Source: Dyadobacter sp. CECT 9275 | Lineage (GTDB): Bacteria; Bacteroidota; Bacteroidia; Cytophagales; Spirosomataceae | Assembly (NCBI RefSeq): GCF_907164905.1 | Contig: NZ_CAJRAF010000002.1 | Coordinates: forward strand, 1,488,001-1,552,000 | DNA: 64,000 nucleotides | Direction of reading: 5' to 3' | In this document: positions 3,976 through 17,768 of the stretch, piece by piece | Layout: the number at the start of each line of letters is the position of its first letter | Position numbering within the stretch: position 1 is the stretch's first letter | The notes under the pieces: model-generated | Database searches by the model: none | The model's input: the letters and a program-made list of their open reading frames with translations, nothing else | Told to the model about the DNA's origin: nothing | Translations under genes and position numbers: made by a program

Positions 3976-4632
3976 ATGCCTGCAATAGCTCCTTCCGTAC
4001 TCGCCGCAGATTTTGCCAATCTGCAGCGTGACATAGCAATGCTCAATAGCAGCGAAGCTGAATATATCCATGTCGACATTATGGATGGTATGTTCGTGCC
4101 CAACATTTCGTTTGGTATCCCGGTTTGTGAGGCCATCCACCGCCATGCAACCAAACCACTGGATGTACATCTGATGATTGAACAGCCAGACAGATACCTT
4201 CCCGCTTTCCGGAAAGCGGGGGCGTCCATACTGACGGTTCATTACGAGGCCTGTCCGCACCTGCACCGTACGGTACAACACATTAAGGAACTAGGTGCGC
4301 TTGCCGGCATTGCACTGAACCCGCATACACCTGTAGAACTGCTGTCGGAAATATTGTCAGATGTTTCATTGATACTGATCATGTCTGTAAATCCTGGCTT
4401 TGGCGGGCAAAAATTCATTGAAAACTCCTATCATAAAATTGCAAAGCTTGACCAGCTCAGGAAAGAAAAAGGATATACATTCAAAATTGAAGTGGATGGC
4501 GGGGTAAACCTGGACAACGCTGCGCTGCTTGCCCAAAGCGGTGCTGATATCCTGGTTGCCGGAAGTTTTGTTTTCAGCGCCGGGGATCCGTCCGGGACCA
4601 TATCAAAACTCAAAAATGTTTCGCAGGTATGA
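3976..4632 (+). CDS. rpe: Ribulose-phosphate 3-epimerase
   Basis: 218 residues from the ATG at 3976; an in-frame TTG at 3961 would add five residues that are not typical of the family. The enzyme interconverts ribulose 5-phosphate and xylulose 5-phosphate in the pentose phosphate pathway. It is a TIM barrel with all expected motifs: IAPSVLAADF at the N-terminus, HVDIMDG (metal His and catalytic Asp), DVHLMIEQP, MSVNPGFGGQKF (phosphate loop), and EVDGGVN with the second catalytic Asp. Length and order are normal. The stop overlaps the start of the next gene in an ATGA, so the two are translationally coupled. About 48 nt upstream lies a sequence shared with the sucC leader (see findings). Confidence 0.97.
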   Translation: MPAIAPSVLAADFANLQRDIAMLNSSEAEYIHVDIMDGMFVPNISFGIPVCEAIHRHATKPLDVHLMIEQPDRYLPAFRKAGASILTVHYEACPHLHRTVQHIKELGALAGIALNPHTPVELLSEILSDVSLILIMSVNPGFGGQKFIENSYHKIAKLDQLRKEKGYTFKIEVDGGVNLDNAALLAQSGADILVAGSFVFSAGDPSGTISKLKNVSQV

Positions 4633-5906
4633 TTTCCCGTTTCGCTTGTCTTTTTCTGATCATTTCCGGTTTTAGCGCCGTTCAGGCAATTGATCATAGC
4701 GAACAACCGATACCGGACAAATTCCCCCTCAGGGTAAGCATAGACGGACGGCATATTGAAGATGCCTCAGGTATGCCTTTTCTGATGGTGGCCGATGTGG
4801 CCTGGCAGCTTTTGCGGAAACTTAGTTATGAAGATGGTGTAAAGTATTTTGACATACGGAAATCGCAGTCTTTCAATACCGTACTGGTTCAGGTACTTCC
4901 GGGCCTGCCCACGCAACGGAATTTTTATAAGACCGCTCCATTTATCAACAATGATATCTCAAAACCCGACAAGGCATACTTTGATCATCTTGAAAAAATT
5001 GTGGCCGCGGCCAGTACACGTCAGCTGGCAATAGGGCTTGTGATAACAGGAAAAAACTGGAATACCCTTTTTGAAACTCAGGGAGCAGAAGCAGGTACCC
5101 TGTACGGAAGTTACCTTGCCGGACGGCTCGCCAAATATGAAAATGTGATCTGGATCATCAACGATGAGTTATCCGAAAACGGCGGAAACGCCAAATCCGT
5201 TGCAAGTGCCGTCAGGACCCGAAATGCGGGGAGAATCATTGCATCACTCGCCACCTGCTCACCCACGGCCGAAAACGACAAAGTTTCCCCTACGGATATG
5301 AAGTTTGTAATCCCCGATTCCACCGTTACGGTTTCTGAGTATGCATCACTGGCTGCCTGGCAAAAAACGATCTGGGAAAATAACCGCCAGCCCTTTCTGA
5401 TTGCCAACTCCGAATTCCCAAGAGAAATAACGGACCAGTCGGCGCTGATCAGGAACCAAGCCTATCAATCCATTATGAGCTCAGCGGCAGGTTTTTGTCA
5501 TCAAAGTACGATTAAAAATTTCCACCCGACCTGGAAAGTTAATATCCTCCGGGACGGTGCGGAGTATATCCAGCATTTTGTTAAAATACTGAAAGGGATC
5601 CCCTGGGAATATATGCGCCCCGAAAGTGAATCCGGCATGCTGCCCGATTCGGCAGACAAGGCTCAGGTTGGGGTATTTGCACTGTCCAATAAAAGAATGG
5701 CTATGCTTTATCTGCCCGAAACGCGCAGTATTAAAGTGGATTTCAAACAGCTCACGGGTAACCAGTTCAGGGCGGTGTGGTATAGCCCGCGTACCGGCAA
5801 GCGGTGGCCAGGCGCTGAATACGAATCCGTGTCCGATGCCATCATTTCCCCACCCGACAGGCAGCCCGAATGGGACTGGATTCTGCTGATCGGAGCAAAA
5901 AACTGA
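4629..5906 (+). CDS. Secreted apiosidase-like (DUF4038) glycoside hydrolase with C-terminal beta domain
   Basis: 425 residues with a signal peptide (about residues 1-20, ending AVQA). Residues 35-310 match the DUF4038 type of TIM barrel: SIDGRHIEDASGMPFLMVADVAWQ at the start, a D-I-R-K-SQSFNTV segment, WIINDELSENG and the strand LIANSEFPRE carry the likely acidic residues. Residues 330-425 look like the small beta domain (PF12904 type) that follows DUF4038. Known members include an apiosidase, but most are uncharacterised, so the substrate is open. The start codon lies inside the rpe stop (ATGA overlap), which suggests joint expression with a pentose-phosphate enzyme. Confidence 0.75.
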   Translation: MISRFACLFLIISGFSAVQAIDHSEQPIPDKFPLRVSIDGRHIEDASGMPFLMVADVAWQLLRKLSYEDGVKYFDIRKSQSFNTVLVQVLPGLPTQRNFYKTAPFINNDISKPDKAYFDHLEKIVAAASTRQLAIGLVITGKNWNTLFETQGAEAGTLYGSYLAGRLAKYENVIWIINDELSENGGNAKSVASAVRTRNAGRIIASLATCSPTAENDKVSPTDMKFVIPDSTVTVSEYASLAAWQKTIWENNRQPFLIANSEFPREITDQSALIRNQAYQSIMSSAAGFCHQSTIKNFHPTWKVNILRDGAEYIQHFVKILKGIPWEYMRPESESGMLPDSADKAQVGVFALSNKRMAMLYLPETRSIKVDFKQLTGNQFRAVWYSPRTGKRWPGAEYESVSDAIISPPDRQPEWDWILLIGAKN

Positions 5907-6072
5907 CGTACCATTCAATGCCAGTCCCGGGATATTTGCCGGGGGGTGTTTTGACATTCTTTATAATTATTATAATATTACCCTATTATTACCCACGTAT
6001 GAATTCAGGGCCGGTCCTATCCGGACACCGCTCTGTATGTAACCCTGCCGGGAATCCGGCTTTAAAACCTCA

Positions 6073-8109
6073 ATGAAAATTTTAAAACTTACATTTAAGA
6101 CCTCAATCCTGTTTTGGATGCTCGTCAGCAACCCTTTAAGTGCTCAGAATGTATTATGGGCAGATAAAGTACTGGGATTTTCATCAGAATTCAGGCCGCT
6201 GATTTATGGCAGCGGATACCGAACAAAGCAGATACTGGGTGCCCCCAACAAGCTTCCGGCTTATGGAGACAGCCCCTGCGCATGGTCTCCGGCTGACCCC
6301 GACGGCTATAATGAAGAATGGATTAAAGTAGGATTTGAAAAAGCGATACCTTTGAAACAGGTAGCCGTAGGAGAAAATTTTAACCCGGGAGCTATCTACA
6401 AAATATACGGTTATGATACTTCTGGAAAAGAATACCTTTTAACCGAAAACAAACCGGGCCCGGTTGCGGAAAAAAGCAGGATGTACCGAATTTTCCCAAC
6501 TTACAACGATATCCTTTGCAACGCAGTAAAAATTGTTTTGCTGCCTTCAAAAGTCTCAGGTTTTAACCAGATTGACGCCATTGGAATTTCCTCAGATACC
6601 AAGCCGATTGAGGCAAGTATCAACCTGGCAGCGCAGGCCTCCAAAGATTTTAAGCGGGAAAATATGGGCAAGGCTATCAACAGCCGCAGCCTTGAAGTAG
6701 CGCCCGTCATCTCTTCAGACGGTAATACGCTCTATTTTACCCGTAGCAATCATGCACAGAATATAGGTATTCCGGGTAATCAGGATATCTGGTACTCCAG
6801 GCTGGGAAAGAACAACCAATGGTCCGAAGCCGTTAACATAGGTCCGCCGCTGAATAACGCTGACAACAATGCCATCACGAGTATCTCTTCGGATGGCAAA
6901 AAGGTATATCTGATTAATAAATATAAACCTGATGGTACCATGGAGTTCGGGTTTTCGTACTCCGTGGCCACCAAAACTGGCTGGGGTTTCCCTCAAGAGA
7001 TCAGAATACCTAACCTGAATATTGACAAAAAACATGGAGATATGGAGATCGCCGTATCTCCGCATGGCAATGTACTGCTGGTTTCGTTTCAACGGCCAGA
7101 CACCGAAGGACAAAGAGATCTATATGTGTGTTTTCTGAAGTCGGATGATACCTGGTCGGATCCGGTGAACATCGGCAACAAGGTCAACTCAGCCGCTGAC
7201 GAAGGCTCTCCGTTTCTGGCCCTGGATAACAAAACACTGTATTTTGCATCCCACGGGCACAGTGGTTATGGCGAGGCCGACCTGTTTGTAACGCGACGCC
7301 TGGATGATACCTGGATACACTGGTCCGAACCCGAAAACCTTGGCCCGGCCATCAACAGTCCGGAATGGGACGGATATTTTAATATCCCGGCCGCAGGTGA
7401 CTACGGTTATTTCTGTTCGGGTGCCAATACACTGGGCCAGGAAGATATTTTCAGGATACGGTTAATACCCGAGATCAAACCGGAACCGGTAGCCATTATT
7501 ACCGGCCAGATCTACGAGGCGGAAACCAACAAACCCATTGAGGCAGAAGTGGTGGCCGAAATGAAATCTGGCAACGACATTTTCACAAAGGTGAATTATC
7601 AGCCAGCAAGCGGTGAGTTTAAGCTGATATTACCCCTGAAAGACATCTATACCTTTTCTGCCTCACAAAAAGGATACTTTCCCGTCATTGAGGAAATAGA
7701 TCTTTCCACAGAAACAGGTTTCAGGAATATCAGGAAAAATATTTATTTGCAGCCTTTGAAGGGCGGGCAACAGATCAGGCTGAGCAACACCCTGTTCTCC
7801 CAGAGCAGCTCGGAAGTAACCCCGACAACTTTCAAGGAACTGGATAAAATTGTGACCACCATGGCGACCTACCCCAACATGGAAATACTGCTGGAAGGAC
7901 ACACCGATAACGTTGGTGAAATTCAAAAAAACATTCAGCTTTCGGAAGACCGGGTTAACGAGGTAAAAAAATATCTTATTTCAAAAGGAATAGATGCCAG
8001 CCGGATCCAGACCAAGGCTTGGGGCCCTTCCAAACCCATAGCCAGTAACCTTACTGAGGTGAGCCGGCAAAAAAACCGGCGGGTTGAGTTTACAATTCTT
8101 AAAATCTAA
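6073..8109 (+). CDS. OmpA-family outer-membrane protein with PD40 propeller
   Basis: 678 residues. A signal peptide (about 1-24, ending LSAQ) is followed by a roughly 150-residue discoidin-like beta region (GAPNKLPAYGDSPCAWSP). PD40/TolB-like blades at about 200-460 carry repeats such as SSDGNTLYFTRS, SSDGKKVYLIN, ALDNKTLYFASHGHSGYGEADLF. A carboxypeptidase-regulatory-like domain lies at about 475-560, and a C-terminal OmpA peptidoglycan-binding domain at 570-678 has the signature LLEGHTDNVGE...N..LSEDRV..V..YL...GI. This architecture is common in Bacteroidota (Pal/PorE-like proteins) and probably tethers the outer membrane to peptidoglycan. The 166-nt gap upstream is AT-rich in its first half and holds no gene I can support. 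Confidence 0.85.
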   Translation: MKILKLTFKTSILFWMLVSNPLSAQNVLWADKVLGFSSEFRPLIYGSGYRTKQILGAPNKLPAYGDSPCAWSPADPDGYNEEWIKVGFEKAIPLKQVAVGENFNPGAIYKIYGYDTSGKEYLLTENKPGPVAEKSRMYRIFPTYNDILCNAVKIVLLPSKVSGFNQIDAIGISSDTKPIEASINLAAQASKDFKRENMGKAINSRSLEVAPVISSDGNTLYFTRSNHAQNIGIPGNQDIWYSRLGKNNQWSEAVNIGPPLNNADNNAITSISSDGKKVYLINKYKPDGTMEFGFSYSVATKTGWGFPQEIRIPNLNIDKKHGDMEIAVSPHGNVLLVSFQRPDTEGQRDLYVCFLKSDDTWSDPVNIGNKVNSAADEGSPFLALDNKTLYFASHGHSGYGEADLFVTRRLDDTWIHWSEPENLGPAINSPEWDGYFNIPAAGDYGYFCSGANTLGQEDIFRIRLIPEIKPEPVAIITGQIYEAETNKPIEAEVVAEMKSGNDIFTKVNYQPASGEFKLILPLKDIYTFSASQKGYFPVIEEIDLSTETGFRNIRKNIYLQPLKGGQQIRLSNTLFSQSSSEVTPTTFKELDKIVTTMATYPNMEILLEGHTDNVGEIQKNIQLSEDRVNEVKKYLISKGIDASRIQTKAWGPSKPIASNLTEVSRQKNRRVEFTILKI

Positions 8110-8194: not shown

Positions 8195-10078
8195 ATGACT
8201 CAAAATAAATCAAAGGAATCACTTTTCACCTGGATCATTTTTGCAATCATTCTTACGGCAGGCCTTTTCCTACGGCTCCATCGGTTGGATACATATAGTA
8301 TCTTTTTTGATGAAAAAAGTACGATGGTCATCAGCCAGGGAATTGTGCTGGAAGGTGCTAATCAGAAAGAGGTATTCTCCACGCTGAAAGTTACTGTGCC
8401 CGAGTTCTGGAAAGCACCTGCGCTTGACTATCGGCCGCCGCAGGTATTACGGTCATTTACGTACAAGGAAACTTTTATACCCAGGGCCTTTACACCCGCG
8501 GAATTTTGGTCACCGAAATCGCTGGCAGATTATTACGAAGCCATGAACCGCAGCGACATAGGAAACAGCCCCTTCTATTACCTGCTACTACATTACTGGA
8601 TGGAGATTTTCGGTTTGTCTGATTACTCAGCCCGCTCGCTTTCCGTACTTTTCAGTGTGCTGATCATCGGAATGACCTATTTGTTCGCCCGGCGTTTCTT
8701 CTCGGTCAAAATCGGGCTGATTGCCTCGGCCATTGTAGCTATTGAACCGTTTTTCATTGCATACAGCCACCAGGCACGCAACTACTCGCTTACTTTTTTC
8801 CTGACCCTGCTCGCCACCTATTTCTTTCTGTTGATTGTTGAGAGCAAGCCCGGAAAAACCAGGGCTGGTCTGCTATATCTGGGGTATATACTGGCGGCGG
8901 GGCTGAGCCTGTTATCCCACTTTCTGGTTATAACGGTACTCATGGCCCATGGTTTGTATGCCTTGTTCTTCTTGAGAAATCTCAAAACCTGGGTCCGGCT
9001 TGCATTGGCTGCACCTGTGGCTTTGGCCGGTGTTACCTGGTGGCTGATGTTCGGGGGAGGCCAATATACCTTATACACCCTCAGTTACCAGGCCGACCTC
9101 TACCGGAGAATGGCCGAAACCAGGCCGTATGATAATCCGTTTGGTGCGCTTCCGGCAACATTTAAAAACGTTTACAAAAAATCACTTCCGCTGTTTTCTG
9201 ATCTTGTACTGTTTACCAATGGTTTGGCGGAGGTTACGCAAGGCAAAAAAAATATGCTGATCGCAATTTTTACCGGTTTCCTGCTGATCCTCCTCTACCG
9301 ATATACGGAAAGAGCGCAATCCCGATGGCTCCCGGGTGTGCATGTAACTATCAAAAGATTGATCCCCGTCGCCCTGATACTTCTCAGCCTTGTTGTTTAT
9401 AATAATCACAAGATCCAGTTTGGTATACTTTCGGTTAGCATTTTTGCCCTTTCTTTTATTCCCGACATTCACAGGCGTGCCGATACCATGGGGCGAAAAC
9501 GGTTGTGGCTGTTGTATATCATGGCACTCGTCCCGGTGTTGTTCCTGATTCTGATGGCCATTAAAAATGGACATACTTTTGGGATACAGCAAAGATACTC
9601 CGGTTTCTCCTTCCCTTATGTCATCATCATTTTAAGCCTGCTGCTTGTATATTACACCAAACTCAGGCTGGAGTACGCGGCCATGATTTATGTATTTATG
9701 GCGATGCAGCTTTACTTTGTTTCACTGCGCCTTGTTGAATTTTACCAGGACCGCTCTGTGAAGTACGGATACTTTGCCGAACCCCGCGTGTCCAATCCAT
9801 ATTATCGCGCGGCAGATCAGATTAAGCAGATTTATCAGAAGGGGGATACCATTTATTATCCGGCTCCCAGCATGATGATCCTGTCAGAAATGGACCGCAC
9901 TTTCTTACCCTATTCCATTCAGGATGCGCAACTTACCAACCTTTACCTGCCCAAAAATGCGGACTATGTTCAGGTGATGGATACCACACAGGCAGAAAGC
10001 ATTCTGTTAAAAAGAAAAATTCAGCAGGACACTCTGGTTATCATGCGCTTAAAGGGGCTCAGATACGGGTCAGAATAA
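8195..10078 (+). CDS. GT39/ArnT-like membrane glycosyltransferase
   Basis: 627 residues, with about ten or more hydrophobic membrane segments in the first 500 and a soluble C-terminal tail. The start has the GT-C signature: a first transmembrane helix, then LRLHRLDTYSIFFDEKSTM with the acidic DE pair in the first external loop, and later NSPFYYLLLHYWMEIFG, typical of the PMT/ArnT/GT39 superfamily. Such enzymes take a sugar from polyprenyl phosphate and transfer it on the outer face of the cytoplasmic membrane. The acceptor is unknown. It precedes the transketolase/epimerase genes in the same direction after a 119-nt gap, so it may belong to the same glycan locus under its own promoter. Confidence 0.8.
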   Translation: MTQNKSKESLFTWIIFAIILTAGLFLRLHRLDTYSIFFDEKSTMVISQGIVLEGANQKEVFSTLKVTVPEFWKAPALDYRPPQVLRSFTYKETFIPRAFTPAEFWSPKSLADYYEAMNRSDIGNSPFYYLLLHYWMEIFGLSDYSARSLSVLFSVLIIGMTYLFARRFFSVKIGLIASAIVAIEPFFIAYSHQARNYSLTFFLTLLATYFFLLIVESKPGKTRAGLLYLGYILAAGLSLLSHFLVITVLMAHGLYALFFLRNLKTWVRLALAAPVALAGVTWWLMFGGGQYTLYTLSYQADLYRRMAETRPYDNPFGALPATFKNVYKKSLPLFSDLVLFTNGLAEVTQGKKNMLIAIFTGFLLILLYRYTERAQSRWLPGVHVTIKRLIPVALILLSLVVYNNHKIQFGILSVSIFALSFIPDIHRRADTMGRKRLWLLYIMALVPVLFLILMAIKNGHTFGIQQRYSGFSFPYVIIILSLLLVYYTKLRLEYAAMIYVFMAMQLYFVSLRLVEFYQDRSVKYGYFAEPRVSNPYYRAADQIKQIYQKGDTIYYPAPSMMILSEMDRTFLPYSIQDAQLTNLYLPKNADYVQVMDTTQAESILLKRKIQQDTLVIMRLKGLRYGSE

Positions 10079-10197: not shown

Positions 10198-11025
10198 ATG
10201 ACCGTAGAAGAAATCACAAACGATCCCAGACAAATAAGCGGTGAGCTGCGGCTTAAAATCCTTGGCCTGTACCATCAGGCGAATGCAGGCCATATCGGGT
10301 GTTCCCTCAGTTGTATCGACCTGATGATCGGCGTATTGTTCCTGAATAAAGATACCAACGATACTTTCATACTTTCCAAGGGACATGCAGCGGCGGCGTT
10401 ATATGCCTGCCTCAATACGCTCGGGGAAATAACAGACGAAGAACTTGCCACTTTTTATCTGGACGGTACTACGCTGCCCGCCCATCCGGCCCCGCGCCAG
10501 TACAAGGGAATTCCTTTTGCAACGGGCTCGCTCGGGCATGGACTGCCCATTGCCACAGGTATAGCCCATGCAGCCAAAGTGTCTGGCGAAGACAGCATAT
10601 CTTTTGCTTTGCTGTCCGACGGCGAAACAAACGAAGGAACTACCTGGGAAGCAGCGAATTATGCTATTGCCAACCAGTTGGACAACCTGATCATGATCAT
10701 TGATAAAAATGGCCTTCAGGGATTTGGGTTTACAGATAAAGTACTTGGAGAAACCGCGGCCATTGAAAAATGGAACGCCATCGGTTTTGAAACAGTAGCG
10801 GTTGACGGCCACGATATACTCGAAGTGAGCAGAACGATTAAAGAATTAAAGTCTCATAAAAACGGATTACCTAAGGCAATTATCGCAGACACGGTAAAAG
10901 GAAAAGGTGTTTCCTACATGGAGAATAAGCTGGAATGGCACTACCTGCCCATGAATCAGGATCAGTATGCACAAGCCATACTGGAAGTAAAAGAACGTTA
11001 CCTTAACGAATTCACGAATGCTTGA
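10198..11025 (+). CDS. Transketolase, N-terminal (pyrophosphate-binding) subunit
   Basis: 275 residues, the usual size of the N-subunit of split transketolases. It binds the pyrophosphate of thiamine diphosphate. Visible motifs are LSKGHAAAALYACL, ATGSLGHGLPIATGIAHAAK, and the ThDP motif LLSDGETNEG...IIDKNGLQGFG (GDG-to-N type with S for the first G). Its partner half is at 13009-13929, on the other side of a 2-kb epimerase-glycosyltransferase gene. That is unusual, since the halves are normally adjacent. The stop overlaps the next start by 8 nt, so the block is translationally coupled. General pentose-phosphate function is possible, but the context suggests a dedicated sugar-precursor role. 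Confidence 0.9.
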   Translation: MTVEEITNDPRQISGELRLKILGLYHQANAGHIGCSLSCIDLMIGVLFLNKDTNDTFILSKGHAAAALYACLNTLGEITDEELATFYLDGTTLPAHPAPRQYKGIPFATGSLGHGLPIATGIAHAAKVSGEDSISFALLSDGETNEGTTWEAANYAIANQLDNLIMIIDKNGLQGFGFTDKVLGETAAIEKWNAIGFETVAVDGHDILEVSRTIKELKSHKNGLPKAIIADTVKGKGVSYMENKLEWHYLPMNQDQYAQAILEVKERYLNEFTNA

Positions 11026-13012
11026 TCAGTTACCGGTCTATCGCGATAAAATTGAAAAACTAAAAGGACCAGTTTTCGTATTCGGTGCCAGCGGTTTTAT
11101 CGGTGCCAATCTTTTCAACGATATTTTCAAAATCAGGAAAGACTGTTACGCACTCACACACGACGCAACCAAAGCATGGCGGCTGAAATTGCTGAATGTG
11201 CCGTTTGAAAACATTATTCACTGTGATATCCTTTCAAATAATTCGGTTTCGGAGGTATTTGAAAAATACAAACCACAAACGATTTTCAATCTGGCCGCCT
11301 ACGGCGCTTACAGCAAGCAAAGCAGTGTGAACCTCACTTATGAAACCAATGTGTTAGGTACGGTCAACATTCTTCAGAACTGCACCCGTGAAATGGTGTA
11401 TATCCATGCCGGAAGCAGCTCGGAATATGGCTTTAACTGTACCGCTCCCAAAGAGACGGATCGCGTGGAGCCTAACAGCCATTATGCCGTTTCCAAGGTA
11501 TCCGCCGCTTATCTGTTAGAATATTATGCCCGGTTGGCTGGTCTCAAAACCCTAAATCTCAGGCTTTATTCCATATACGGTTACTGGGAAGAACCCGATC
11601 GGCTCATTTCCAGATTAATCGAAAAAGCACGTCAAAAACAGTTACCATCACTGGTATCCCCGGACATCAGCCGGGACTTTGTTTTTATAGAAGACTGCGT
11701 GGAGGCGTTTGTAGATGCCGCCCTTAAAGTAGACCGAGCTACCTCGGGTAAATCCTATAATATAGCCACTGGCCGAAAAACGACGATCGGGGACCTTGTA
11801 AATACTTCCCGCAAAACATTTGGTATCCCTCAGGAACCTCAATGGGGAAGCATGTCCAACAGGAACTGGGACCTGGCCGAATGGTATGGAAACCCCGGTT
11901 CTTTCCAGGATGATTTTGGCTGGGTTGCACGAACTTCCCTTGAAGAGGGATTGTCCAAGACAGAGCAATGGCAGCAGGCGATACGGTATGAGGAAACCGT
12001 CATACCCGCCTTTGAAAATCCGAAACTGAACCCGGTAATCACAGCCATTATTGCCTGCTACAAGGATGCCCAGGCCATTCCCTACATGTACGACAGGCTG
12101 GTTAAAACTTTCAACCAACTGAAAGTTCGTTATGAGATCATCTTCGTGAACGACAATTCTCCTGATAACCAGGAAGAAGTCATTAATAACATTTGTGACA
12201 AAGACCCCAACGTAGTGGGTATCAGCCATTCCAGGAACTTTGGCTCACAGTCGGCTTTCCTGAGTGGTATGGAAATTGCTACCGGCGACTGCGTGGTACT
12301 CATGGATGGTGATCTTCAGGACCCACCGGAAATCATTCCCGATTTTTATGAAAAATGGATGGAAGGAAATGATGTGGTGTATGGCGTACGCGTGCAGCGT
12401 GAAATGAAACCGCATATTCATTTCTTTTACAAAACCTTTTATAAAGTATTCCAGAGCCTGAGCTACATCCCCATACCGCGCGATGCGGGTGATTTCTCCA
12501 TGATCGACAGGAAAGTGGTAAAGGAACTGGTTGATCTTCCCGAAACAGAACAGTTTCTGAGAGGTTTGCGCGCCTGGGTTGGTTTTAAGCAAACAGGAGT
12601 ACCTTATGTGCGCCCTGAAAGGATGTTTGGGGTTTCAACCAACAACTGGACCAAAAATATATGGTGGGCGAAAAAAGCGATTTTCTCATTCAGTTTTGCT
12701 CCGCTTGAACTGATGAGTTATGCCGGTTTTGCACTAACGGGTTTATCAATTCTGGGAATTATCTGGCAGATCCTGGCCAAGTTTATCTTCTTCCCCGACA
12801 CACCGCAAGGTATCAGTACTGTCATCGTTCTGATCGTATTCTTTGGAGGGCTTACCATTCTGGGGATATCATTCCTGGGTGAGTATATCACCAAAATATT
12901 TGAAGAGACTAAAAAACGACCGAAATATATTCGTACTCGTATCAGACGCGGCTCCAAGTCCTATAAAACCGCTGATGAAATAAGGACACTTGTAAAACAG
13001 CTAAGAAAATGA
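11018..13012 (+). CDS. Fusion: extended SDR NAD-dependent sugar epimerase/dehydratase + DPM1-like GT2 with C-terminal membrane helices
   Basis: 664 residues carrying two enzymes. Residues 1-330 are an extended SDR: Rossmann motif GASGFIG near residue 25, an Asp after the next strands, the Ser patch GSSSEYG, and the catalytic pair in HYAVSK. This is the fold of NDP-sugar epimerases, dehydratases and reductases. Residues 337-580 are a GT2 domain of the polyprenyl-phosphate-sugar type: IIACYKDA, VNDNSPDN, SRNFGSQSAFLSGM and the metal site DGDLQDPPE. Two membrane helices follow (about 565-590 and 605-630), then a basic tail, as in DPM1/ArnC/GtrB proteins. The likely role is to make a modified NDP-sugar and load it on polyprenyl phosphate. 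It overlaps tktN (8 nt) and tktC (4 nt). Confidence 0.85.
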   Translation: MLDQLPVYRDKIEKLKGPVFVFGASGFIGANLFNDIFKIRKDCYALTHDATKAWRLKLLNVPFENIIHCDILSNNSVSEVFEKYKPQTIFNLAAYGAYSKQSSVNLTYETNVLGTVNILQNCTREMVYIHAGSSSEYGFNCTAPKETDRVEPNSHYAVSKVSAAYLLEYYARLAGLKTLNLRLYSIYGYWEEPDRLISRLIEKARQKQLPSLVSPDISRDFVFIEDCVEAFVDAALKVDRATSGKSYNIATGRKTTIGDLVNTSRKTFGIPQEPQWGSMSNRNWDLAEWYGNPGSFQDDFGWVARTSLEEGLSKTEQWQQAIRYEETVIPAFENPKLNPVITAIIACYKDAQAIPYMYDRLVKTFNQLKVRYEIIFVNDNSPDNQEEVINNICDKDPNVVGISHSRNFGSQSAFLSGMEIATGDCVVLMDGDLQDPPEIIPDFYEKWMEGNDVVYGVRVQREMKPHIHFFYKTFYKVFQSLSYIPIPRDAGDFSMIDRKVVKELVDLPETEQFLRGLRAWVGFKQTGVPYVRPERMFGVSTNNWTKNIWWAKKAIFSFSFAPLELMSYAGFALTGLSILGIIWQILAKFIFFPDTPQGISTVIVLIVFFGGLTILGISFLGEYITKIFEETKKRPKYIRTRIRRGSKSYKTADEIRTLVKQLRK

Positions 13013-13929
13013 GAAAAGAATTTTCGTCTGCCATTGAGGAACTGGCCGCTGAGGACGACTCCATCGTCTTCATTACGGGTGACCTTGGATACAACGCACT
13101 TGAAAATCTGCAGGGCAAGCTTGGCAAGCGTTTTATAAATGCCGGTGTTGCCGAGCAGAACATGGTAGGAGTAGCGGCGGGTTTTGCACACAAAGGGTAC
13201 AAAGTGTTTTGCTACAGTATCGCTCCGTTTATCGTTTACAGATGTCTGGAGCAATTTCGTAACGATGTCTGCTTTCACAACCTGCCGGTTTTCCTGGTTG
13301 GTAACGGTGGCGGATACGGTTACGGCATCATGGGCAGCAGCCACCATACCCTGGAAGATATTGCCTGCCTGAGCGGATTACAAAATGCAAATGTATGGGT
13401 TCCGGCGTTTTCCGATGAAGTGGGCCCGGTGATCAGGCAAATAGTGGCAGACGCCCACCCAGCCTATCTGCGGCTTGGCGCCGGGAAAACCACGCCCGAC
13501 AATAGTTACTCTTCCGGGTCGTTCAAGGTGATCCATAAAGGTGCGGAAGCCGAAATGACCGTTTTTGCCCTTGGCCCCGTAGCAAATAATGTGATGACCG
13601 CTTTGGGGCAAATTCCCGAAATAGCCTCAAAAATAAACGTGATAACCGCCCTGCATTTCCCTCTGAAAATCGAAAACGACCTGATGGAAATACTGGCTTC
13701 TGCCCCGCATATTATGGTTGCCGAAGAGCATATTGGTACCGGTGGCCTGGCGCAGCAGCTTTCTGTACAGCTTCTTGAAAAAGGCGTGGGGATAAGTTCC
13801 TTCAAAAGTCTAAAAGCCGAAGGATACCCCAACTCCCGATATGGAAGCCAGGCTTATCATCAGAAGCTCTCCGGCCTGGATGCCGCTTCCATTGCGGGTT
13901 ATATCAGTCAAATGATGATTCCCGCATGA
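13009..13929 (+). CDS. Transketolase, C-terminal subunit
   Basis: 306 residues, the normal size for the C-half of a split transketolase (pyrimidine-binding plus C-terminal domains). The catalytic Glu that activates thiamine diphosphate is in RFINAGVAEQNMVGVAAGFA. It is followed by the aromatic-pocket region YSIAPFIVYRCLEQFRNDV and by GYGIMGSSHHTLEDIACL, the usual His-rich substrate loop. The C-terminal domain ends with VAEEHIGTGGL. The start overlaps the stop of the epimerase-GT2 fusion (ATGA), and the stop overlaps the next gene in the same way, so this is an operon-internal gene. Together with tktN it should make an active alpha2beta2 enzyme that moves a two-carbon ketol unit. Confidence 0.9.
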   Translation: MRKEFSSAIEELAAEDDSIVFITGDLGYNALENLQGKLGKRFINAGVAEQNMVGVAAGFAHKGYKVFCYSIAPFIVYRCLEQFRNDVCFHNLPVFLVGNGGGYGYGIMGSSHHTLEDIACLSGLQNANVWVPAFSDEVGPVIRQIVADAHPAYLRLGAGKTTPDNSYSSGSFKVIHKGAEAEMTVFALGPVANNVMTALGQIPEIASKINVITALHFPLKIENDLMEILASAPHIMVAEEHIGTGGLAQQLSVQLLEKGVGISSFKSLKAEGYPNSRYGSQAYHQKLSGLDAASIAGYISQMMIPA

Positions 13930-15626
13930 ATAAAAAGGCTTTCAATATCGTCATAAGCCTGATTATTCTTATTCCGGTTGTCGTTTTTTTTACGGCCTGG
14001 AATTATTATGCCATTAATATACCCAAGTGGGACGACCACGCGCTAAAAACCTTCATCGTGGAATACAGCCAGGCCACCACCTGGCAGGAAAAATTCGCTT
14101 CTGTTTTCAAGCAGCATAACGAGCACCGCATAGCCCTCACCAGAGCAATCACCTGGCTTGACTTCAGGCTTTTTGGCAGCCTTAATTACAGGCACCTGAT
14201 GCTGGCCGGAAATTTCCTGCTGCTGGCCCTTATTCCCCTCTGGTTCCTGTTGCTTAAAAATAACAAAAAGCCCTATTTTGCCTTATTGCCAATTCCGTTT
14301 ATCTGGCTGACCCTGGCTTTTTGGGAAAATATGTATTGGGGAATGTCCGCCATTCAGAACTTTGGTGTGGTTACTCTGGCCGTCTGGACGTTGTATCTTT
14401 GTGTCAATCCCAAACCATGGCCATTTACACTTTCGCTGCTTCTGGCACTGATAACTGTCGCAACAAGTGGTAATGGGCTGCTGATTTTACCCATTGGAGG
14501 TGTGTTGCTGTTTCTCTCCCAAAACCGGAAACGGTTTGCCTTGTGGATTCTGATGAGCGCAGGTGCCGTATTCAGTTACTTTTACTGGTACTCTAAAAAC
14601 GTTTCCAATCCTGTTTCCAGAGCTTCCGTTTTCCAGCTGGCAAAAGGCTATATGGCTTTCCTGGGTTCCTTCGCGGAATCATTCCCGGTTTTGGATAATT
14701 TCAAAGTCTGCGTGTTCTCGGGAATATTCCTTTTTCTGGTCGCCGTTTCCATAGGTTCCACCACCCTTTTCAGGATCATACGAAACAAGTATAGTGCGAA
14801 GTCTGAAAAGGCAACCGACCTTTTCTGCCTCGGCACCATTCTTTTTATTCTGGGTACTGCGCTGATAGTCGTCTATTCCCGCGCCGGATTTGGCCTTGAA
14901 ACCCTGATCACCAGCCGCTATAAAATCTATTCGGTACTGCTGCTGATCACCGGCTACCTGTACGTAGTGATCCCGATCCGCGGAAGTTTTTTATCCCCCT
15001 ACATTTCTGCGATCATTTTACTGGGAGTTGTTTTCAACATTTTCAGCTACCACTATCACCTGGTAGATGCCAGTTCCCTTCGGAAAATGCTGACCATGAG
15101 CCAGTTCAACTGGACCTACACCAATAAAAGTCTTGAAGTACGGCCGGATACCTCCTTTGCCGCTAACATTGTTGCCAAAACTCCGGTATTTTACAGCACA
15201 TGGCCTGCCCCTATTAAACTTGCTGACAAGCAGGGCTACGCGGGTACTACCAACGGTTTGCCGGAACTATACGCCCAAACACAGTTTGATATTTCCAAGA
15301 CAGGTATCTCGGTTAAAAACAATAAATTTTCCAGCCAGCGTCTTCAGGATAGCGGAATTTATATCCTGCTGAGTTCAGACAAACGTTTTTATGTTTTTCC
15401 TGCCTACCGCACCCGGAACAGAAATCGTAAGCAGCTATTTATCAAGCAATATTACTTCGCTCCCGGCTTCCATTCGGATATCTTTTTTGCGGAAAATCAG
15501 ATTGAAAAGGGAGATTATAAGATAGGGCTGATCCGCCAGCAGGGCGACGATACCAGCATTTTATTTAAGGATAAAACCGTTCATATTCCCGAAACCATTT
15601 CGGAAAAAATTAAAGTAAACTGGTGA
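13926..15626 (+). CDS. Polytopic membrane protein, GT-C-like, probable glycosyltransferase
   Basis: 566 residues. About ten membrane helices occupy residues 5-400, and a soluble mostly beta tail runs from 400 to 566. The first external loop holds IPKWDDHALKTFIVEY and then QHNEHRIALTRAITWLDF. Acidic residues at this position are the hallmark of GT-C transferases that use polyprenyl-phosphate sugars. I do not recognise a named family, so the assignment rests on topology and context. It overlaps tktC by 4 nt and is followed directly by the acyltransferase. A natural reading is that it uses the lipid-linked sugar made by the upstream GT2 domain. It could instead be a polymerase or ligase. Confidence 0.65.
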   Translation: MNKKAFNIVISLIILIPVVVFFTAWNYYAINIPKWDDHALKTFIVEYSQATTWQEKFASVFKQHNEHRIALTRAITWLDFRLFGSLNYRHLMLAGNFLLLALIPLWFLLLKNNKKPYFALLPIPFIWLTLAFWENMYWGMSAIQNFGVVTLAVWTLYLCVNPKPWPFTLSLLLALITVATSGNGLLILPIGGVLLFLSQNRKRFALWILMSAGAVFSYFYWYSKNVSNPVSRASVFQLAKGYMAFLGSFAESFPVLDNFKVCVFSGIFLFLVAVSIGSTTLFRIIRNKYSAKSEKATDLFCLGTILFILGTALIVVYSRAGFGLETLITSRYKIYSVLLLITGYLYVVIPIRGSFLSPYISAIILLGVVFNIFSYHYHLVDASSLRKMLTMSQFNWTYTNKSLEVRPDTSFAANIVAKTPVFYSTWPAPIKLADKQGYAGTTNGLPELYAQTQFDISKTGISVKNNKFSSQRLQDSGIYILLSSDKRFYVFPAYRTRNRNRKQLFIKQYYFAPGFHSDIFFAENQIEKGDYKIGLIRQQGDDTSILFKDKTVHIPETISEKIKVNW

Positions 15627-15628
15627 GC

Positions 15629-16735
15629 ATGCACACAACCTCCAAGGGACATATTATTCAACTTGACGGTATCCGCTTCATAGCAGTTGCCCTGGTACTG
15701 ATAGACCACCTGCTTGCCGATATAAACACCATACCCTTTGGTCCGCTCGGGGTGACCATTTTCTTTGTGTTGAGCGGCTTTCTTATCACCAGGATACTAC
15801 TGAAGAGCAAAGAAAAAACTGCATCCGAGCCCGGAGGGTTTAAGAAATATCTCCGCAAATTCCTGATTCGCCGTACCATCCGGATCTTCCCTGTTTATTA
15901 CTTATGTATTGCCGTTTTGTACATTCTGGATGTCCCCCCCGTTCGTGAGCAGCTTGCGTGGCTGGCTTTGTATGGTACCAATATCTATATCGCTGTTAAC
16001 CAGCACTGGATGGGTGTGGTAGATCATTTCTGGTCTCTGGCAGTCGAAGAACAGGTTTACTTATTTTTCCCCTTCCTGATATTTTTTGTTTCAAGAAAAA
16101 ACCTGATCCCCTGGCTGGGTTTCATGGGTGTGTTCAGTGTTGCGCTGCGGTTCTATTTTTATTTCTCCGGTAAGGAATGGTTTGTCTCTTACGTGACCAT
16201 GCCTGCCTGCCTTGACTCGTTTGCGCTGGGTGGCCTGATGGCCTGGCTACAACTATACAAAACCGACGTGTTTGTTCGGCTGTTCAACAAATCTTGGCCG
16301 GTGGTACTGGGGCTGCTTTCATGGATTTTACTGCATTATATATCCAAGCATCTGGGACAGAAATACAACATTGCGAACGTAGTGCTGGACCGGCTGGTTT
16401 CTTCAATCTTCTGTTTTTTCCTGATCGGACGGGGAGTAATCGGGTATGGAGGGCTCATGAAATTTTTTCTTGAAAATCCTGTCAGCGTTTACCTTGGGAA
16501 AATCAGTTATGGGATTTACTTGTATCACAACTTTGTTTACAACCACTTTCACAGCGGCCCCAACCACCCGGTTGTGAGGTTTTTCAATAAGGCTTACCGT
16601 AACTTTCCTGAGCTGGAAAATTATCCTGCCTTTCAGGTGGTGTCGGTATGTATCTTTACCGTTATGATCGCGTCGGTATCCTGGCATTTTTTTGAAAAGC
16701 CAATTAACGCACTAAAAGATAAATACGCCGGTTAA
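15629..16735 (+). CDS. Acyltransferase family 3 (OafA/YrhL type) membrane protein
   Basis: 368 residues from the ATG at 15629. A GTG at 15623 inside the preceding stop would give a coupled start two residues longer, and I cannot decide between them. The N-terminus has the family signature QLDGIRFIAVALVLIDH with the catalytic-type Asp/His, then FGPLGVTIFFVLSGFLITRIL. The second conserved block is VDHFWSLAVEEQVYLFFP. About ten membrane helices are present. These enzymes move acetyl or other acyl groups across the membrane onto sugars of O-antigen, peptidoglycan or other glycans. There is no fused SGNH domain here, but an AlgX-like SGNH protein is encoded 4 kb downstream and may complete the reaction. 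Confidence 0.9.
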   Translation: MHTTSKGHIIQLDGIRFIAVALVLIDHLLADINTIPFGPLGVTIFFVLSGFLITRILLKSKEKTASEPGGFKKYLRKFLIRRTIRIFPVYYLCIAVLYILDVPPVREQLAWLALYGTNIYIAVNQHWMGVVDHFWSLAVEEQVYLFFPFLIFFVSRKNLIPWLGFMGVFSVALRFYFYFSGKEWFVSYVTMPACLDSFALGGLMAWLQLYKTDVFVRLFNKSWPVVLGLLSWILLHYISKHLGQKYNIANVVLDRLVSSIFCFFLIGRGVIGYGGLMKFFLENPVSVYLGKISYGIYLYHNFVYNHFHSGPNHPVVRFFNKAYRNFPELENYPAFQVVSVCIFTVMIASVSWHFFEKPINALKDKYAG

Positions 16736-16930: not shown

Positions 16931-17024
16931 CGGTAAATAATTACAGTTGATATTTAATGCATTTAACACCACTATCCCGTTAACATTTATTAATTTCGCG
17001 CAAACTTACCAAATAAACTTCTGC

Positions 17025-17768
17025 ATGTCGTTCCTTCTGAGTATAGTAATGCCCGCCTACAATGAGCAGGATTGTATAGAAAAAGTAGTACATAGCTGGA
17101 CAAGTTTCTTACAAAGAAAATTTCCCAACGATAATACAACACTTATAGTAATTAATGACGGGTCGAAAGACAATACGAAGGTACTTTTGGATAAATTAAA
17201 AACCGAGGTATCCAATCTGACTGTGATCCATCAGAAAAATGGCGGCCACGGCAATGCGGTTGTGAACGGCTACCGTACCGCTCTGAAACTTGACTCACAA
17301 TACGTTTTTCAGACAGATAGTGACGATCAGTTTATTTCGGACGACTTTGATAAACTCTGGGAAAAACGCGATAAATCACAGTTTATCCTGGGATACAGGC
17401 AGGTACGCCACGATGCCAGTGTGCGCCTGTTTATCACGAAGTTTCTTAGAGGTACCATTTCTGCAGTTTATGGCACTTTTATCATGGACAGCAACATACC
17501 TTTCAGGCTCATTAAAGGTAGTTTTCTTAAAAAACTGATGGACCAGTTGCCTGATCCTGAACCATTTGCACCTAATATTTTCCTGGCTGTGATGGCAAAA
17601 AAATCTGGACAGGAAACATTTGATATCCCCATTACCCACAAAGACCGTGAAACGGGCGAGGTATCCATCGTGAAATGGAATTTGTGGAAAGTATGTATTC
17701 GTAGCTTCAAAGAATTGTTACGGTTCCGTCTGGAGCTTAATCAAAAAGTGAAAGCGATCCGTGCATAA
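17025..17768 (+). CDS. Glycosyltransferase family 2
   Basis: 247 residues from the ATG at 17025. A TTG at 16947 would add 26 residues that do not look like GT2, while MSFLLSIVMPAYNEQD is the normal start. It has the GT-A fold motifs: PAYNEQDCIEKV, VINDGSKDNT, KNGGHGNAVVNGYRTAL, then the metal site QTDSDDQFISDDF. No membrane helix is visible. It is probably a cytoplasmic NDP-sugar transferase or a soluble polyprenyl-phosphate transferase; the KNGGHGNAV block resembles the DPM1/WcaA branch. Only 11 nt separate it from the large membrane-anchored gene downstream. Sugar and acceptor are unknown. Confidence 0.88.
   Translation: MSFLLSIVMPAYNEQDCIEKVVHSWTSFLQRKFPNDNTTLIVINDGSKDNTKVLLDKLKTEVSNLTVIHQKNGGHGNAVVNGYRTALKLDSQYVFQTDSDDQFISDDFDKLWEKRDKSQFILGYRQVRHDASVRLFITKFLRGTISAVYGTFIMDSNIPFRLIKGSFLKKLMDQLPDPEPFAPNIFLAVMAKKSGQETFDIPITHKDRETGEVSIVKWNLWKVCIRSFKELLRFRLELNQKVKAIRA

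Follow-up and report, generated by a model that had tools for sequence, protein, structure and literature searches.

Two half-genes of a split transketolase, tktN and tktC, enclose in Dyadobacter sp. CECT 9275 a single gene that fuses an extended short-chain dehydrogenase/reductase (SDR) to a family 2 glycosyltransferase (GT2) of the GtrB type. The trio lies in a window of 64,000 nucleotides (contig NZ_CAJRAF010000002.1), which is the whole stretch of DNA that was analysed. It is strongly supported that the trio belongs to one dedicated pathway, because the four modules tktN, tktC, SDR and GT2 travel together across phyla and because the fusion and tktC are present in an identical set among 150 genomes of the family. 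We see an even chance that the trio represents, in one lineage, a cassette that is widespread among bacteria, in which a specialised split transketolase goes along with an extended SDR fused to a polyprenyl-phosphate glycosyltransferase, all acting in the five steps proposed below. The cassette probably builds an unusual, carbon-extended sugar of the cell surface. A dedicated pathway had already been suggested by an initial annotation of this DNA, and the idea is supported for the four modules, found in the same 81 of 150 family genomes and in many phyla, whereas the separation of the two transketolase halves, on which the annotation had put its weight, is not its key feature.

Four modules that travel together

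In the window, the coordinates of the open reading frames (ORFs) and the Pfam matches agree with the order first annotated, with overlaps of 8 nt between tktN and the fusion, 4 nt between the fusion and tktC and 4 nt between tktC and the ORF at 13926-15626 (Table 1). The full-length fusion is present in 37 of 37 genomes of the genus, the own one included, with 89-100% identity. A survey of 150 genomes of the family (cut-offs E <= 1e-120 for the fusion and E <= 1e-40 for tktC) found it in 81 genomes, belonging to 22 of 36 genera, and tktC in 81 genomes as well, the set being identical to that of the fusion-bearing genomes. In 76 of these 81, the fusion is followed by tktC at a distance of up to 3 kb (up to 100 nt in 39), and therefore the linkage of the trio is not due to chance; the exceptions are G193, where tktC is located upstream, and G081, G117, G123 and G180, where it is on another contig. 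One genome of another family (G041) also carries the fusion, at 55% identity. The annotation had staked the idea of a dedicated pathway on an order conserved in close relatives, and tktN-fusion-tktC was indeed found in 25 of the 28 loci that were read in detail, namely 27 loci of the family and L079 from G041. The deviating loci are L078 (from G193) with the order tktN-tktC-fusion, L068 without tktC on its contig, and L079 with the fusion only, near a contig end. At L064 an antisense ORF lies over the fusion, which itself is confirmed there, and one family genome has a second cassette-type tktC at a contig start (G190:C82:220-1110).

For the distribution across bacteria, a tktC profile was scanned against species-level genomes, and the loci studied are the best 80 of 573 that were confirmed by similarity to one tktC. 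As the loci were chosen by tktC, the counts give the frequency with which tktC is accompanied by the other modules and not the reverse, and many loci are metagenome bins; the frequency of the fusion without transketolase was surveyed in the family only. All four modules are present in 65 of these best 80 loci. Their order is tktN-tktC-SDR-GT2 in 39 (38 plain and L183 with an extra housekeeping-like match), interleaved as tktN-SDR-GT2-tktC in 25, and SDR-tktN-tktC-GT2 in one (L175), and it is incomplete in 15. The 39 loci with adjacent halves come from 11 named phyla, with 15 in Bacteroidota, 13 in Pseudomonadota, two in Armatimonadota, one each in Bacillota, Myxococcota, Ignavibacteriota, FCPU426, Cyanobacteriota, Acidobacteriota, Bdellovibrionota and Verrucomicrobiota, and one locus without a named phylum. 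The 25 interleaved loci belong to Cytophagales (24; Spirosomataceae, Cytophagaceae and Flectobacillaceae according to NCBI), plus one labelled Flavobacterium. The search for the interleaved order across genomes, which had been suggested as a check, thus confirms that the modules travel together, but the halves are parted only in a minority of the 80 loci, and with 39 loci showing adjacent halves followed by the fusion, the separation is not supported as the defining trait.

SDR and GT2 are joined in a single ORF in 65 of the best 80 loci and in 28 of 28 further loci; L177, counted as fused, has only the SDR end in the GT2 ORF, and L201 is cut at its end. The 15 loci without such a fusion comprise L130, L143, L169 and L186 on short contigs, L175 with SDR and GT2 apart, L145, L156 and L157 with an unfused SDR, L176, L178 and L185 with a classical SDR, L188 and L190 with tktN-tktC only, L149 with tktC alone, and L192 with a CDP-type (cytidine diphosphate) cluster. 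In the Bacteroidota variants L145, L156 and L157 a short GT2 (226 aa) comes after the unfused SDR, and then another protein, which in L157 is DUF4915 (PF16261), and the GtrB-type half seems to be replaced there.

A separate transketolase clade with an altered pocket

A search of the host genome (7.2 Mb, 4 contigs) for Transketolase_N gave three places, namely the tktN of the window, a further N half at C1:820389, and a weak match in a 651-aa frame, which was taken as DXS. The cassette does not hold the sole transketolase of the genome, which the annotation had named as fatal to its idea, since the N half at C1:820389 forms a second, housekeeping-type split pair with a C half at C1:822944. The halves of this pair are themselves separated by about 1.7 kb of DNA that holds two ORFs, and in L111 and L116 one ORF each parts the housekeeping halves. 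Parted halves are therefore unremarkable in themselves, and the premise that split transketolase halves are normally adjacent was too strong; archaeal split transketolase genes likewise need not adjoin, according to a review passage in PMC7661550. The ORFs between the housekeeping halves (L057:8278-9875; G000:C1, between 820389 and 823717) match a candidate anti-phage pair, HEC-01A (2e-89) and HEC-01B (7e-61).

The phylogeny of the transketolase halves against the housekeeping enzyme, also suggested at the outset, places the cassette apart. In a joint tree of both halves with 52 rows (38 from cassettes, i.e., 37 picked of 108 loci plus the window, and 14 others) the 38 cassette rows form one clade (100/100) and the four housekeeping rows another (100/99). 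The group next to the cassette consists of seven rows from other clusters (92/72; joint branch 99/97), two of which adjoin genes for CDP-3,6-dideoxysugars, namely L106, where RfbH was tested, and L192, according to blast labels. The RfbH-type proteins of L106 (5961-7613) and L109 (5936-7588) have 550 aa; the RfbH match in L106 begins at residue 116, and by eye the first ~110 residues look like a PemK/MazF-type domain. Nine interleaved rows form one clade (100/99), and in the rows that branch off just outside it (L140, L148, L157) the halves lie side by side. The separation looks lineage-specific because the interleaved rows form one clade, and its simplest reading would be a single rearrangement in the ancestor of the interleaved lineage. 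Inside this clade, tight beside L059, stands the Cytophagales-type interleaved cassette of a locus labelled Flavobacterium sp. SUN052 (L139), which was either transferred horizontally or comes from an assembly that is mislabelled or mixed.

The two-chain split, with the pyrophosphate domain on one chain and the pyrimidine and C-terminal domains on the other, is confirmed by PF00456 on tktN and PF02779 on tktC, the latter aligning to residues 318-616 of human transketolase (TK). The positions H37, H77, H110 and H258 of TktN are His in 101, 102, 101 and 103 of 103 rows, the Asp and Asn of the Mg site are kept in 103 of 103, and Glu366 of TktC is kept in 106 of 106; we take these positions to be the thiamine diphosphate (ThDP), Mg and catalytic sites. 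The position of human TK His416, however, is Gly in 106/106 cassette rows (Gly100 in the TktC of the window), and that of Asp424 is Met in 105 and Gln in one (Met108 in the window), while the four housekeeping rows (4/4) keep His, Asp and Arg at the positions of His416, Asp424 and Arg474. His416 and Asp424 belong to the active-site model of human transketolase, as given in a part of PMC8016368. As judged from the alignment, the cassette transketolase has an altered substrate pocket, and by these residues it does not class as a pentose-phosphate (housekeeping) enzyme. An argument from the loss of Ser345 was dropped, because this column aligns differently between two alignments. The best PDB match of both halves is ChTK of Carboxydothermus (6yaj, 6yak), which shows the same two-chain division in the part of PMC7661550 consulted; the cassette tktC is distant from ChTK, with 98.7 bits vs 319.3 bits for the housekeeping tktC of the same genome.

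Proposed pathway and its alternatives

The GT2 half is supported as a GtrB/ArnC-type polyprenyl-phosphate glycosyltransferase, for which the transfer is predicted from homology. It matches GtrB (phmmer E 7e-62; Foldseek 6.5e-22) and ArnC (E 1e-32), which supports the lipid-carrier loading expected by the annotation, its model has two long C-terminal helices (561-591 and 599-631), and the DxD-type motif is conserved (D430 in 94, D432 in 93 and D435 in 94 of 94 rows). The best NCBIfam match of this half is PgfS (NF047588), yet with 235.8 bits it stays below the model cut-off of 500. The SDR half has the fold of nucleoside diphosphate (NDP)-sugar enzymes and keeps GxxGxxG (G23 92/94, G26 92/94, G29 93/94 rows) as well as Ser-Tyr-Lys (S133 92/94, with two Thr; Y156 and K160 93/94 each). 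It carries Ser-Ser (93/94 and 93/94 rows) where RmlB of the same genome has Asp-Glu, a pair after the catalytic Thr that presumably marks NDP-sugar 4,6-dehydratases, and the fusion SDR was therefore rejected as such a dehydratase. For the protein at 13926-15626, a GT-C fold was found in the fold prediction.

The model that we propose has, taken as a whole (ketol addition, SDR redox, polyprenyl loading, GT-C transfer), about equal chances of being right or wrong. A nucleotide sugar of the general pool would receive a keto group from the SDR with NAD+, or would already be a 4-keto sugar (step 1), and TktN/TktC would add a two-carbon hydroxyacetyl (ketol) unit to it, resulting in a branched sugar (step 2). 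The SDR would then perform a redox reaction, probably the reduction of a ketone (step 3), the fused GT2 domain would charge the sugar to polyprenyl phosphate (step 4), and a GT-C protein (13926-15626 or 8195-10078) would move it to a surface acceptor, while the acyltransferase may decorate the product (step 5). Every one of these reactions, as well as the NDP-sugar level, branching instead of chain extension, the donor and the acceptor, is what we infer from the gene set. More specifically, it can be tentatively suggested, with a little less than even confidence, that this is an undescribed multi-phylum route in which a split transketolase would branch a keto nucleotide sugar with hydroxyacetyl for the cell surface, with a ketone as natural acceptor and with SDR and polyprenyl-phosphate loading in one protein. 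For the five-step model speak, besides the linkage of the modules, the separate clade, the altered pocket, the closeness of the GT2 half to GtrB and ArnC and the Ser-Ser of the SDR, three Myxococcota loci without an extended SDR, in which a classical SDR adjoins the GT2 instead, and the scarcity of NTP-transferases (3 of 108 loci). Moreover, split transketolases were proposed to place hydroxyacetyl on keto sugars (in a part of PMC12247030), and a split transketolase is described to accept bulky aldehydes (in a part of PMC7661550).

Several points weigh against it. Characterised transketolases use aldehydes, and acceptance of ketones is unproven according to the sections of PMC12247030 consulted. 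The cassette has no linked dehydratase as a source of the keto sugar. This genome contains no CDP-glucose 4,6-dehydratase at E <= 1e-60, so that the CDP-glucose route was rejected here; within the family, 18 of the 81 cassette-bearing genomes and 13 of the 69 others possess the enzyme. RmlB, present in 58 of 59 relatives and in two copies in this genome, is uninformative for that reason. The cassette is missing from 69 of 150 family genomes and is thus non-essential, and L188 and L190 have to be counted here as well, holding only tktN-tktC. Since the pocket changes are common to the seven sister rows and two other split transketolases, they alone do not point to a nucleotide sugar, and the argument from the Arg474 position is weak, because cassette rows have Arg in 17/106 (Ala in 41/106).

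The preference of transketolases for aldehydes, which includes the Carboxydothermus split enzyme (in a part of PMC7661550), would rather suit an extension of the sugar chain: an aldehyde exposed on a nucleotide sugar, e.g., at C6, would take up the ketol, and the GT2 half would load an octose-like sugar on the lipid. The module linkage fits this equally. However, an SDR of the epimerase/reductase type usually oxidises a ring hydroxyl and not C6, and we regard chain extension as unlikely. Still less probable is that the GT2 charges an ordinary sugar first and that SDR and transketolase afterwards modify this sugar on the lipid, in the manner of the mycobacterial DprE1/DprE2. The fusion of SDR and GT2 would be in line with such editing, and so would the lack of a dedicated nucleotidyltransferase in 105 of 108 loci; nucleotidyltransferases (NTP-transferases) were found in 3/108, a count which rests on six of the seven PF00483 places of the genome (L211 left out) plus rfbF, with many loci being short. 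TktN/TktC, however, are without a membrane segment in their family matches, and the SDR fold is that of enzymes for NDP-sugars.

Transketolase reactions are reversible and the sequence cannot tell their direction, so that the enzyme might also strip a ketol unit, the shortened sugar being loaded on the lipid; as the proposed precedents add the unit (in the part of PMC12247030 consulted), we consider this improbable. Hardly credible at all is a second pentose-phosphate transketolase that came to lie beside a glycan gene by accident. The kept catalytic and cofactor residues would agree with it, but the genome has its housekeeping-type pair at another place, the clades are separate, His416 and Asp424 are each replaced in all cassette rows, and the linkage holds across phyla.

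Among known systems, the split transketolases of miharamycin and amipurimycin likewise stand beside an oxidoreductase with a proposed hydroxyacetyl addition to a keto sugar; in the part of PMC12247030 consulted they form a set of 13 candidates from Streptomyces secondary metabolism, none assayed in vitro, and they were compared with the cassette by description and not by sequence. Unlike these, the cassette joins its SDR to a polyprenyl-phosphate GT2 in one protein and occurs in many phyla. YerE and ErwE (yersiniose, erwiniose) resemble the model in that a ThDP enzyme extends the carbon skeleton of a keto nucleotide sugar destined for a surface glycan, but they belong to the decarboxylase family and use keto-acid donors and a CDP-sugar acceptor (in a part of PMC12247030). 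A YerE-like cassette was rejected, as its ThDP enzyme is a transketolase and the genome is without CDP-glucose 4,6-dehydratase. The GtrB and Arn systems combine a polyprenyl-phosphate GT2 with a GT-C transferase, and the GT2 half of the cassette is close to theirs, with a GT-C-fold protein adjoining; in contrast to them, the cassette unites SDR and GT2 in a single protein and includes a linked transketolase. An Actinoplanes cluster contains a methyltransferase, a split transketolase and two aminotransferases (in a part of PMC13390465). The apulose transketolase was not used as a precedent. No description of the cassette was found in the open-access literature of PubMed Central (PMC), the only literature searched. 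Since both the branching of sugars by ThDP enzymes and the loading on polyprenyl are known, it is the combination that is new. Transketolases that branch keto sugars have so far only been proposed, as far as the consulted part of PMC12247030 goes, and the cassette provides a far larger and broader set; its probable partner enzymes are fused and linked, and therefore a branched sugar built by a transketolase becomes directly testable. If the model is true, Dyadobacter, Spirosoma, Larkinella, Nostoc, Methylobacterium and others would make an unseen kind of polyprenyl-linked sugar, and the cassette would be the surface-glycan counterpart of the unproven miharamycin and amipurimycin transketolases.

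Features of the window and neighbouring genes

Table 1. Coordinates of the cassette and associated genes in the window
Feature	Position	Strand	Properties
tktN	10198..11025	+	transketolase N half, ThDP pyrophosphate-binding domain, 275 aa; PF00456 (Transketolase_N) 99.4 bits
extended SDR~GtrB-type GT2 fusion	11018..13012	+	664 aa, one ORF
SDR half of fusion	11018..12007	+	residues ~1-330; Epimerase 145.8 bits (residues 19-250); epimerase/reductase-like motif GSSSEYG
GT2 half of fusion	12008..13012	+	residues ~331-664; Glycos_transf_2 93.6 bits (residues 343-504); GtrB/ArnC-type
tktC	13009..13929	+	transketolase C half, 306 aa; PF02779 (Transket_pyr) 90 bits
membrane protein, predicted GT-C fold, possible final transferase	13926..15626	+	without Pfam match
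Acyltransferase 3 family protein, possible product decoration	15623..16735	+	PF01757 83.8 bits
PMT_2 family membrane glycosyltransferase, associated, upstream	8195..10078	+	PF13231 51.9 bits
second short GT2 protein, associated	17022..17768	+	PF00535 71.1 bits; recurs in family loci

The gene of the GT-C-like protein overlaps that of the acyltransferase by 4 nt as well. Of the 28 loci examined closely, 21 have a homologue of the GT-C-like protein downstream, and 18 have a gene labelled as homologous to the upstream PMT_2 protein. The ORF of the short GT2 is listed from TTG 16947, and the start at 17022 was chosen. Among the 71 loci that have both GT and tktC matches, 29 contain methyltransferase genes (five seed types) no more than 4 kb downstream. 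Further upstream (4629-8109) the window has an apiosidase-like gene (PF13204) and OmpA/PD40 genes. A homologue of the apiosidase-like gene (4629) is labelled in 3/3 loci of the same genus and 1/25 other loci, and because of this low number outside the genus a link to apiose was rejected.

Elsewhere in the genome there is a second set, in which two GT2 genes of the polyprenyl-phosphate type enclose those of two membrane proteins (L058:6789-11871; G000:C1). A 46% identical fusion lies near a tktN-like match in L212 (NZ_AP014705.1:801710-821638), on a 1.57-Mb plasmid of Methylobacterium aquaticum that is typed as mobilizable, and plasmid records annotate TktN-like proteins (~38% identity) as aptA/aptB.

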